From the NCBI RefSeq assembly GCF_000244875.1, contig NC_016791.1, forward strand, positions 4,345,001 to 4,409,000: a DNA stretch of 64,000 nucleotides, written 5' to 3'. The translations under genes were made by a program, and so were the position numbers. The notes under the pieces are model-generated. The model had not been told where the DNA came from, searched no databases, and saw only the letters and a list, made by a program, of their open reading frames with translations. Origin of the DNA: Clostridium sp. BNL1100. Lineage in GTDB: Bacteria > Bacillota > Clostridia > Acetivibrionales > DSM-1351. Position 1 is the stretch's first letter. Every line of letters begins with the position of its first letter. Shown in pieces: positions 25,018-37,265 of the stretch.

Positions 25018-25905
25018 TTATATTATGACAAATCCTACTGCGATTGATGCGACATTGGCAATAAAGGTGTAAGCTGCAATTTGTCTTTTTTCTGCTTTAC
25101 CGAACAGTTTAACATAAATTAAATACTCTGCTAAAAATACCAGAATCTCTCCTATAAGCAAGATTACAAGATAGCCTGTATTAAAAGGCATTTTATGTAA
25201 AATTGGATAATTAAATATCATTCCAAAGGTAAGAAAAGTCTGAGTTATGATATTTACTCCCGCAATAATCAATAATCTCTTGGCTTTATTATAGAAGAAC
25301 GGAATAGCCAAAAATATCTCTATTATCAAGGTTAATAGGAGCCTTATTAAATAGTCTTTGAAAAACTTTTTATCTAATTTTATACCGTTTTTAAGTATGT
25401 TTCCACTTATAGACAATACCTGATTGGTCTTCATGTCATATTTTACGTGGGCATTGAAGTACCCATTCCGGATAATATCCGATACCTGTATTGACCCATC
25501 AGACTTCTGGATTATTATTTTGAATTTTTGTGGAACGCCAACATAACCAAAGGAATGTCTCATTGTAAGGACTTTCCCGTTTTTATCTTTTTCTACAGGG
25601 TCTCCCGTAAGTTTTCCGTTCAGAACCCAAGTTCTCATATGTATAGCCTTCCAGCCATCCTTGTTATATTTATAGATTGGCTGGTCATGCATATTGTCGT
25701 ACTCTTGGTTGCCATCCGTTGCATCAAAGTATCCATACTCACCTTCCTTGCCAAGAAGGTCCAGATAGTAGCTAGTATCCTGAGGATTTAAAACTGTTAT
25801 CTCCAGTGTAGGCTTTGGCCCGGAATCTGCATTGACTGTACTATAACTTAATATGAATATAACAAACATTAGAAGTAGTATAATGTGCTTTCTCATTTTT
25901 ACCAT
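25018..25905 (-). CDS. Secreted-N-terminus, multi-pass membrane protein of unknown function
   Basis: 295 residues. A signal peptide (HIILLLMFVIFILSYSTVNA) leads into an extracytoplasmic domain of about 150 residues with aromatic motifs such as GKEGEYGYFDATDGNQEYD. About four transmembrane helices then occupy residues 180-295. I recognise no family. GAGG lies 9 nt before the first ATG; a second ATG three codons on is possible. No operon partner. Confidence 0.75.
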   Translation of the reverse strand: MVKMRKHIILLLMFVIFILSYSTVNADSGPKPTLEITVLNPQDTSYYLDLLGKEGEYGYFDATDGNQEYDNMHDQPIYKYNKDGWKAIHMRTWVLNGKLTGDPVEKDKNGKVLTMRHSFGYVGVPQKFKIIIQKSDGSIQVSDIIRNGYFNAHVKYDMKTNQVLSISGNILKNGIKLDKKFFKDYLIRLLLTLIIEIFLAIPFFYNKAKRLLIIAGVNIITQTFLTFGMIFNYPILHKMPFNTGYLVILLIGEILVFLAEYLIYVKLFGKAEKRQIAAYTFIANVASIAVGFVII

Positions 25906-25998: not shown

Positions 25999-26027
25999 TT
26001 GCAAAATTCTCCCATAATAGATATAAT
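25999..26027 (+). promoter_or_regulatory. Promoter of the 26-kb structured leader RNA
   Basis: TTGCAA (25999-26004), a 17-bp spacer and a perfect TATAAT (26022-26027). The predicted start near 26034 is about 15 nt before the first conserved-looking helix. Confidence 0.7.
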
Positions 26028-26033
26028 CTTTTT

Positions 26034-26182
26034 AGGGAAAATTAAATAGTTGCCGTGATTTCTAAGTGTTGGAGCACTTAGAAACTCATGCAGGTGTCAA
26101 CACCACCCACACGTATGGACGAAAGTCCACCACAGCAACCAGTTTTTATTATACTTGGTTTTGTTTCTTTTTGCAATCAAAC
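26034..26182 (+). ncRNA. Multi-hairpin structured leader RNA, candidate riboswitch
   Basis: A closing helix P1 (GTTGC-c-GTG 26049-26057 with CAC-a-GCAAC 26131-26139) encloses three hairpins. P2 is a perfect 10-bp stem (26059-26068 with 26075-26084). P3 is GGTG-TCAA-CACC (26093-26104). P4 is GGAC-GAAA-GTCC (26117-26128), a GNRA tetraloop. Between P3 and P4 is the unpaired stretch CCCACACG (26106-26113). It can pair, with one bulge, with CGTGTAGGG (26188-26196) in the left arm of the following terminator. That gives mutually exclusive terminator and antiterminator forms. I do not recognise it as a known riboswitch class. Confidence 0.6.
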
Positions 26183-26218
26183 AAGTGCGTGTAGGGTCAC
26201 ACCTATCCGCACTTTTTA
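26183..26218 (+). terminator. Intrinsic terminator within the structured leader
   Basis: AAGTGCG (26183-26189) pairs with CGCACTT (26208-26214), with an inner TAGG/CCTA helix, followed by TTTAATTTT. It lies 36 nt before the start codon of the small downstream gene, so it acts as an attenuator rather than a gene end. Confidence 0.75.
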
Positions 26219-26220
26219 AT

Positions 26221-26249
26221 TTTCCCTCCATTTTTTCTTTGGAGGGAAA
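26221..26249 (+). promoter_or_regulatory. Hairpin masking the Shine-Dalgarno of the small gene at 26254
   Basis: TTTCCCTCCA (26221-26230) is the exact complement of TGGAGGGAAA (26240-26249), with a 9-nt loop. The right arm contains the SD (GGAGGG) of the gene at 26254. The stem would block ribosome binding unless opened. Confidence 0.7.
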
Positions 26250-26253
26250 TTAT

Positions 26254-26550
26254 ATGTGTTTTAAGAATAACGTTGGTTTTAAGGACAGGGAAACTTTCAT
26301 TCTATCTTGTATGGATAGCCGAATTGATAAGTTGAGCGACGAATTCATTAATTCCGCTTCATATTTGGAGTTTTCCGCTAAGTATCAAGACATCTTAAAG
26401 AAGTTGGCAAATTTATTGCCTTCTGAAACCTTTGCACTGGTTTTGGAGCTTGACAGCTTAAATGGAAAACTATCCTCCGACAATCAAACCTTCTTTTATA
26501 AGCAAGGATTTTTTGACTGTCGGATGGTTTTTAATTTTTTGAGGAGATGA
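26254..26550 (+). CDS. Small protein of unknown function behind the structured leader
   Basis: 98 residues, starting at the ATG at 26254 with GGAGGG 7 nt upstream. The frame continues upstream through the terminator hairpin, but that part is not believed. The protein is mostly helical and acidic, with the motif LLPSETFALVLELDSLNGKL and then TFFYKQGFFDCRMVF. This looks like small Firmicutes proteins made of a helical bundle, but I cannot name a family. It has two cysteines besides C2 and no membrane segment. Its control by both a terminator and a masked SD suggests expression only under a specific condition. Confidence 0.7.
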   Translation: MCFKNNVGFKDRETFILSCMDSRIDKLSDEFINSASYLEFSAKYQDILKKLANLLPSETFALVLELDSLNGKLSSDNQTFFYKQGFFDCRMVFNFLRR

Positions 26551-27782: not shown

Positions 27783-27856
27783 TGGAGCGGGTGATGGGAA
27801 TCGAACCCACGCTGTCAGCTTGGGAAGCTGATGTTCTACCATTGAACTACACCCGC
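27783..27856 (-). tRNA. tRNA-Gly (CCC)
   Basis: 74 nt including CCA. Acceptor GCGGGTG / CACCCGC, D-arm AGTTCAATGGTAGAAC, anticodon loop TTCCCAA giving anticodon CCC, T-loop GGTTCGATTCC. CCC reads only GGG codons and is the less common glycine isoacceptor in low-GC Firmicutes. Confidence 0.95.
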
Positions 27857-37044: not shown

Positions 37045-37265
37045 TTAAGTTAGTCCCAAAATGGCGTCCCCAGTATTTTGACACCTAGCCCGAAGCTAGG
37101 TGGGTGTCCCGGTGGTATCTTCAGCCTTCCTTCGCCGTTGCACAACGTTCACGCCGTGTGTCGGAATTACATAAGGCCTGACATCGTATACCAGACAGCA
37201 GACTCCCTTATGAAAGATGTAGGTTCAAAATAAAGGTTTCATTCGCTCATTTCAGGATAACTGTT
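37045..37265 (-). ncRNA. ssrS: Probable 6S RNA
   Basis: A gene-free region with a 6S-like layout on the minus strand. A long closing stem joins the ends: AGTTA-T-CCTGAAATG-a-GCG (37262 downward) pairs with CGCCATTTTGGG-AC-TAACT (ending 37048), about 17 pairs with two wobbles. Inside, the 5' side of the central bubble reads TTTGAACCTACATCTTTCAT, close to the conserved TTGAGCCGACAT-type segment of 6S RNAs. Beyond it an interrupted apical arm (CATAAGG / CCTTATG and other helices) follows. A strong promoter lies upstream and a terminator downstream. 6S RNA binds and regulates the main RNA polymerase holoenzyme. Identified by eye, not by a covariance search. Confidence 0.72.

Follow-up and report, generated by a model that had tools for sequence, protein, structure and literature searches.

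A putative two-lock leader precedes a 98-codon gene

The window analyzed here is a 64,000-nucleotide stretch of Clostridium sp. BNL1100 DNA (G000:C1:4345001-4409000), and all positions below are window positions. At 25999-26550 lies a small locus for which a preliminary description had proposed a candidate riboswitch. A promoter scan located the proposed plus-strand promoter, TTGCAA-17-TATAAT, at 25999-26027, with similar promoters in aligned copies, and the 5' end of the leader RNA would lie at about 26034. The hairpins P2 (an uninterrupted 10-bp stem), P3, and P4 (with a GAAA loop) were all found where they had been placed. Downstream, we found a terminator-type hairpin at 26183-26214 followed by five T residues, then a perfect 10-bp hairpin (26221-26249), TTTCCCTCCA / TGGAGGGAAA (26221-26230/26240-26249), that covers the Shine-Dalgarno (SD) sequence of a 98-codon open reading frame (ORF) at 26254-26550. 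These features support the earlier proposal that two control layers, a terminator and a masked SD, act on one small gene. The terminator was not listed by the promoter/terminator scanner, which applies its own rules, and is present in the predicted leader folds. The predicted fold of the leader was compared with folds of dinucleotide shuffles for 26034-26220 (z -4.12) and for 26034-26256 (z -6.05), and in both cases none of 200 shuffles equaled it.

In the window the leader stands alone, flanked on one side by a 295-residue gene that had no Pfam match (25018-25905, minus strand) and on the other by a gene of the DinB superfamily (PF12867). The same site is also occupied in two other genomes (G005 and G009); in G002 the upstream gene is present, and neither the RNA nor the ORF had a match. 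The genome of the window carries three intact copies of the leader and a broken fourth. A piece of the start of the 295-residue gene (89% over about 70 bases) lies directly upstream of the copy own_c, which hints at segmental duplication. The broken fourth copy (L004 1501-1841; G000:C1:256983-257323, minus strand) has kept its terminator and has lost the promoter, P1-P4, and an intact ORF.

The leader belongs to a family found in Bacillota genomes and prophages

Used as a DNA query, the window leader was found in 7 of 60 genomes, its own included. R1, a covariance model built on the core of the plus strand, matched 13 of 391 genomes of the class Clostridia, and a model of the minus strand (R3) matched 16 of 391 in the class and 5 of 398 in the phylum, each R3 count including the window's genome, with at most eight copies per genome. 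Ruminiclostridium papyrosolvens C7 carries two close copies. Nine IMG/VR contigs matched a prophage-type pattern and the RNA was present in all nine; a second prophage-type pattern matched three of the same nine contigs, and a window-type pattern matched none of the viral contigs. By blastn, the window element had no match in plasmids or phages, nor had two prophage-type relatives in phages.

The analyses below use 51 loci unless stated otherwise. The viral copies L127, L133, L134, and L135 shared scores and neighbors with G3p, G5p, G7p, and V128, and were therefore treated as their duplicates. Seven further loci were kept apart from the 51: five were seen with R3 only and two (L037 and L038, there named G359 and G424b) were also weak R1 matches; four of the seven were read by eye. 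Three other R3 loci (G090:C158, G139:C45, and G424:831324) lie outside this extra set.

The RNA class had been called unrecognized, and a search of Rfam 15 bore this out, with no family match at gathering scores. Each of 14 low-scoring matches fell far below its gathering score. The best sub-threshold overlap was L20_leader (23.6 of 58.7 bits), on the terminator, and known RNA families are unsupported. We found no report of this RNA family in open-licence papers. The accessible main text of three genome-wide surveys of structured RNAs (PMC11109978, PMC8632094, PMC6429828) held no relevant passage, and the accessible parts of PMC5171806 and PMC11318856 held nothing on this RNA.

Two mutually exclusive predicted folds are conserved

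The pairing of CCCACACG (26106-26113, segment d) with CGTGTAGGG (26188-26196, d') in the terminator, proposed in the preliminary description, is present with one bulged A. Two more long-range pairs are predicted. Segment c (AGGTGT, 26092-26097) is complementary to c' (26199-26204), which like d' is contained in the arms of the terminator hairpin. Segment a, at the 5' end of the leader (26034-26050), is complementary to a' (26211-26227), which is made up of the T-tract and the anti-SD. This last complementarity had been overlooked, and it means that segment a competes with both locks. To evaluate the pairs, we compared own with swapped partners in 21 lineage representatives of the 51 loci. None of 10,000 permutations was as good for a/a', nor for d with the terminator, and 72 of 10,000 were as good for c with the terminator, which is the weaker long-range pair. 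Segment d thus shows the complementarity to a terminator 5' arm, with covariation, that is expected of a pre-emptor in an attenuator.

In 51 loci, the best downstream complement of segment a was located, and it lies at the terminator T-tract and the bases beyond. Dinucleotide-shuffled downstream DNA (200 shuffles per locus) never equaled the a/a' pairing in 17 of the 23 loci used for this comparison; one to four shuffles did so in five loci, and 20 did so in one (G5p), where the pairing is no better than chance. The pairing was also weak in four of the seven extra loci. Of the 51 loci, 43 had a hairpin over the SD region that exceeded the threshold of the script, and 37 had an ORF start directly behind it (34 long ORFs and three of 22 codons); the hairpin was absent from 8 of the 11 loci of G764 and G802.

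The earlier claim of two mutually exclusive folds is supported by these results, and we conclude that the two predicted folds are conserved. The ON fold would combine a/a', c/c', and d/d', and the OFF fold would combine the terminator and the SD hairpin, between which a' is then split. Energies were computed for 19 loci, and in all 19 a fold constrained to contain both a/a' and d/d' was less favorable, by 0.6 to 17.6 kcal/mol. Predicted energies favor OFF, and ON must therefore be kinetic or helped.

A second candidate promoter lies within the leader on the opposite strand

Also missing from the preliminary description was a promoter on the minus strand within the leader, reading from 26176 to 26148, with a -35 TTGCAA (26176-26171), a spacer of 17, and a -10 TATAAT (26153-26148). 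Its hexamers and spacer are identical to those of the sense promoter. The -10 was a perfect TATAAT in all 51 loci. A TTG was found 17 bp upstream of it in 49 loci, 16 bp in one, and 18 bp in one; the other spacers from 8 to 29 had a TTG in no locus or one locus each, except 21 (8 loci) and 25 (13 loci). The -10 had been part of one search model, R2, by which 12 of the 51 loci were found, and is absent from R1 and R3; the -35 is in none of the three models. Among the seven extra loci, six had a TTG 17 bp from a -10-like hexamer, which was TATAAT in three, and the seventh (G139a) had a -10 without a -35. As read from the DNA, the leader has a candidate promoter for a counter-transcribed RNA, as attenuators of the pT181/pIP501 type do.

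The covarying structure is best explained by the minus strand

The RNA made from this promoter would be about 104 nt long (26036-26141, minus strand; both ends are predictions) and would fold into a four-way cloverleaf with a U-rich tail. Its stems are P1' (26131-26141/26047-26057), P4' (26125-26130/26115-26120), P3' (26104-26113/26087-26096), and P2' (26075-26085/26058-26068). The minus strand from 26141 to 26036 had a predicted fold of -49.8 kcal/mol (z -8.32), with the cloverleaf making up 53% of the ensemble, and model R3 matched 26143-26038 with 105.5 bits. After the P1' arm, at least five T in nine were found in 45 of 51 loci; this U-rich tail, the complement of segment a, is plausibly a terminator. 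With its predicted ends, the antisense RNA spans the pre-emptor and stops short of the leader terminator, the arrangement that an attenuator calls for. A predicted antisense RNA opposite the mRNA of a small gene is also a feature shared with type I toxin-antitoxin loci.

We next asked which strand carries the structure. In all 52 loci compared (the 51 plus L144, a third copy in G072), the minus strand gave the more stable fold of the two, by a mean of 16.0 kcal/mol, and it likewise folded better in the seven extra loci. In alignment A9, which holds the minus strands of 38 of the 52 loci, the 38 pairs of the cloverleaf formed in 93.6% of cells, versus 76.9% when read as plus strand; the structure was derived from the window's own minus strand, and the count therefore leans toward minus. 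Among these 38 sequences, G-U cells numbered 250 on the minus strand versus 12 on the plus strand. Both sides had changed in 24 of the 38 pairs, and cells with both-side changes numbered 207, whereas shuffles gave 63.9 and slid structures no more than 49. The plus-strand reading of P1-P4 covaries too, with both-side changes in 19 of 30 pairs (28 sequences), as is expected if its complement does. For the closing stem P1, the plus-strand model has 5 pairs and the minus strand 11, and the conserved CCACA at 26130-26134, unpaired in the plus-strand model, lies within P1' on the minus strand. The described features are retained, with compensatory changes, by homologues across Clostridia and other Bacillota and in prophages. 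An aptamer on the mRNA strand that would account for the covariation was not found in the strand test.

Paralogous copies differ in their hairpin loops

We compared same-genus paralogues within each of five genomes. The loops varied between copies: 25 of 30 columns in the P2 loop (26069-26074), 23 of 35 in the P3 loop (26097-26103), and 7 of 20 in the P4 loop (26121-26124), which differs among some copies. No column differed in P1 (50 columns), the P3 stem (40), or the antisense -10 (30); one of 80 did so in a', and 397 of 1491 did so in the ORF. Across 11 paralogue groups (G764 and G802 are pooled in one of them), loops varied in 116 of 184 columns versus 121 of 1513 for the remainder, and the excess had the same direction in all 11 groups (Fisher p-value = 0.024 to 2.6e-14). 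The copy-specific loops match perfectly in cis only. A YUNR loop motif was present in 23 of 51 loci, compared with 13.3 in shuffled loops; because the loops were parsed crudely, we place no weight on this figure.

Loop divergence exceeded synonymous divergence in 7 of 14 paralogue pairs, one a near tie, and we therefore do not claim selection for loop change. The pattern fits loops that change early and then keep to a limited set, as in an address change after duplication; this fit is no proof of selection.

Downstream genes differ between branches of the family

The leader precedes the window-protein family within the window's genus, as it also does in G040 and G043, and each of the 14 same-genus loci of alignment A2, like G040 and G043, has both leader and window-type protein. 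Elsewhere the leader precedes DUF6809-like proteins, Spo0E-like proteins (PF09388; two tested, 32.5 and 34.0 bits, cut-off 23), or, in G249, SymE (PF08845; one tested, 43.0 bits, cut-off 29), with SymE-like ORFs after the leader in other prophage copies. In G5p, a serine recombinase follows directly, of which a 200-residue piece matched NCBIfam recombinase models below their cut-offs. At three loci of G163 (L120, L121, L106) the first ORF is a conserved 22-codon peptide overlapped by an ORF of about 60 codons, and by eye G764 and G802 have 55-codon or response-regulator-like ORFs after the leader. At G656, the leader precedes a small ORF and, next to it, a TnpB-family gene (NF040570, 169.8 bits, cut-off 100), so that L124/L061 (G656:C53) may possibly represent antisense control of an RNA-guided nuclease operon. 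In G005, G249, G016, and viral contigs, the leader lies just behind holin and amidase genes (named by eye) and precedes DUF6809-like, SymE-like, or serine-recombinase genes.

The protein encoded in the window gave a confident soluble three-helix model (pLDDT 90.1), and its alignment with relatives suggests that it is distantly related to DUF6809. The window protein itself did not match the DUF6809 model (PF20648, Pfam cut-off 27 bits); 8 of 19 aligned relatives matched at E up to 0.05, one of them above the cut-off (28.8 bits). A comparison with solved structures gave no useful sequence match (best E 0.018), PADLOC returned nothing for the four proteins submitted, and "DUF6809" occurred in no open-licence paper. 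The protein is under purifying selection, with pN < pS in 14 of 14 paralogue pairs. DUF6809-type proteins also occur without the leader, including in the window's genome.

Several neighboring genes were noted by eye or in passing. The ORF of about 60 codons in G163 looks membrane-bound. In G230, the Spo0E-like gene has a gene resembling a REP-associated-type transposase downstream of it (L122, 645-1427 past the RNA start), and a similar one lies upstream of the leader at L120. At L143 (1255-2341, minus strand), DUF6809-like, SymE-like, and resolvase-like genes stand in a row without a leader, and this gene partnership thus exists independently of the RNA.

A model of antisense-controlled attenuation with two locks

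Taken together, we conclude that the locus is very probably an attenuator under the control of a cis-encoded antisense RNA, with two locks and a design like that of pT181 and pIP501, and not a riboswitch. The elements of this model are those read from the loci above: both promoters, the predicted cloverleaf, the long-range helices, the putative terminator and SD hairpins, and the copy-specific loops. The strong sense promoter would produce the leader of the 98-codon gene, and the second promoter, on the opposite strand, would produce the cloverleaf RNA. The latter would cover the leader's 5' half, with a, c, d, and P1-P4, but would not reach c', d', a', or the SD. As long as the leader is free of antisense RNA, c and d would occupy both arms of the terminator and a would hold the T-tract and anti-SD, so that transcription continues with the SD free. 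When the antisense RNA meets the nascent leader, presumably making its first contacts with the loops of P2, P3, and P4, it would sequester a, c, and d; the terminator would then form, and any read-through RNA would have its SD locked by the second hairpin. We infer that the cell produces both RNAs, that pairing begins at the loops, and that the switch has this polarity. Its purpose would presumably be to control the dosage of small genes or to silence them; many of these genes lie on mobile elements.

The best-known examples of antisense-driven attenuation control the copy number of plasmids. According to the accessible text of PMC5703833, the antisense RNAI of pT181 blocks a pre-emptor, whereupon a terminator hairpin that includes the ribosome binding site forms, and the RNAIII/repR pair of pIP501 has a design similar to RNAI/repC of pT181. 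The leader family shares with these systems, as described there, a counter-transcribed RNA complementary to an untranslated leader, a pre-emptor that binds the terminator 5' arm when antisense RNA is absent, and a ribosome binding site masked in the OFF state. In contrast to the plasmid systems in that account (PMC5703833), it is found on chromosomes and prophages before non-Rep genes, has the terminator and the SD mask as two hairpins, adds the helix between the 5' end and the anti-SD (a/a'), and has a predicted cloverleaf antisense RNA in several loop-different copies per genome. The family also has no match to an Rfam ctRNA model, since ctRNA_pT181 and the other ctRNA families were not among the covariance-model matches.

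We weighed four other explanations. The first, in line with the original proposal, was a ligand-binding riboswitch, in which a small molecule or ion would bind at the plus-strand P1-P4 junction and thereby select the fold. Orphan riboswitch candidates resemble the locus in having two exclusive 5'-leader folds with terminator and SD control, and a conserved four-helix leader whose plus-strand pairs covary could be read in the same way. However, the minus strand explains the covariation better, the antisense promoter is present at every one of the 51 loci, the downstream genes have no common pathway, and no Rfam riboswitch matched. Here the sensor would be an opposite-strand RNA, and the hairpin loops are variable and address-like. 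We dropped the riboswitch reading once the antisense promoter had been found and the strand tests had followed, and we now regard it as improbable. What stands of the preliminary description is the structured, conserved leader with exclusive folds and two locks; nothing found here calls for a ligand, and a ligand- or protein-sensing aptamer is unsupported, both because the covarying four-helix structure belongs to a minus strand with its own promoter and because copy-to-copy variation sits in the hairpin loops, as antisense recognition predicts. Autoregulation, in which the DUF6809-like protein binds its own leader, would suit the constant company of protein and leader in the 14 same-genus loci, G040, and G043, yet the same leader stands before unrelated proteins and such proteins occur without it, which makes this the least credible of the explanations.

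The cloverleaf could also be a small RNA that acts in trans on other targets and overlaps the leader only secondarily. Its very stable stand-alone fold and its own promoter would be expected of such an RNA, but a complement of the leader's 5' end lies at the expression platform in 51 loci with partner-specific changes, and the perfect loop matches in cis only argue against it further; we consider this very unlikely. A possible reading, if still an unlikely one, is a type I toxin-antitoxin system, which would employ the same RNA mechanism for another purpose, with the antisense RNA as antitoxin and the small proteins as toxins. In E. coli, SymE is controlled by the cis-antisense RNA SymR (accessible text of PMC5415839), and SymE or SymE-like ORFs follow the leader in G249 and in other prophage copies. 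As in that account of SymR (PMC5415839), a cis-encoded antisense RNA would lie opposite the upstream part of the gene; in contrast to it, conserved attenuator folds precede the gene here and most downstream genes are not SymE. Type I loci of clostridia and Bacillus likewise comprise small genes with antisense RNAs, several on prophages, and in C. difficile the pairs are convergent and overlapping (accessible text of PMC6563280), whereas the antisense RNA here lies opposite the 5' leader; the words 'attenuation' and 'terminator' are absent from the main text of that review of Clostridia type I systems, as accessible (PMC6563280). Against toxins, the copies with Spo0E-like, recombinase, or TnpB-operon genes do not encode known toxins, and the window protein is modeled as soluble.

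Two minor candidates were rejected. Attenuation by an upstream ORF was suggested by the start-like GCCATG/GCCGTG and was discarded by eye, because a P2 loop of 6 or 7 nt breaks the frame; in G40 and G163 the frame happens to stay open far. For a transposon end acting at the DNA level, the covariation of P1-P4 and the partner-specific long-range pairs argue instead for RNA.

Possible significance of a probable antisense attenuator family

Returning to antisense attenuation, we tentatively suggest, as a rather doubtful extension, that these Bacillota cassettes are mobile and self-diversifying, that their loops change after duplication so that copies do not cross-talk, and that prophages use them for RNA-based homo-immunity. 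If true, near-identical switches with three altered recognition loops would coexist in parallel, like compatible plasmids, and at prophage copies, which sit after lysis genes and before SymE or serine recombinases, a resident antisense RNA could silence a matching incomer. A covarying chromosomal and prophage family would show the plasmid device to be a general small-gene switch in bacteria and phages, and would supply a natural set of potentially orthogonal antisense/attenuator pairs. The family also holds a caution for riboswitch discovery, in that covariation on one strand may stem from an RNA on the opposite strand; counts of G-U versus A-C cells settle which strand carries the structured RNA.

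Two RNAs of known families were recognized elsewhere in the window. A tRNA gene lies just past the DinB-family gene at 27786-27856 (minus strand; RF00005, 74.6 bits), and a 6S RNA lies at 37049-37261 (minus strand; RF00013, 61.5 bits, gathering score 46.4).
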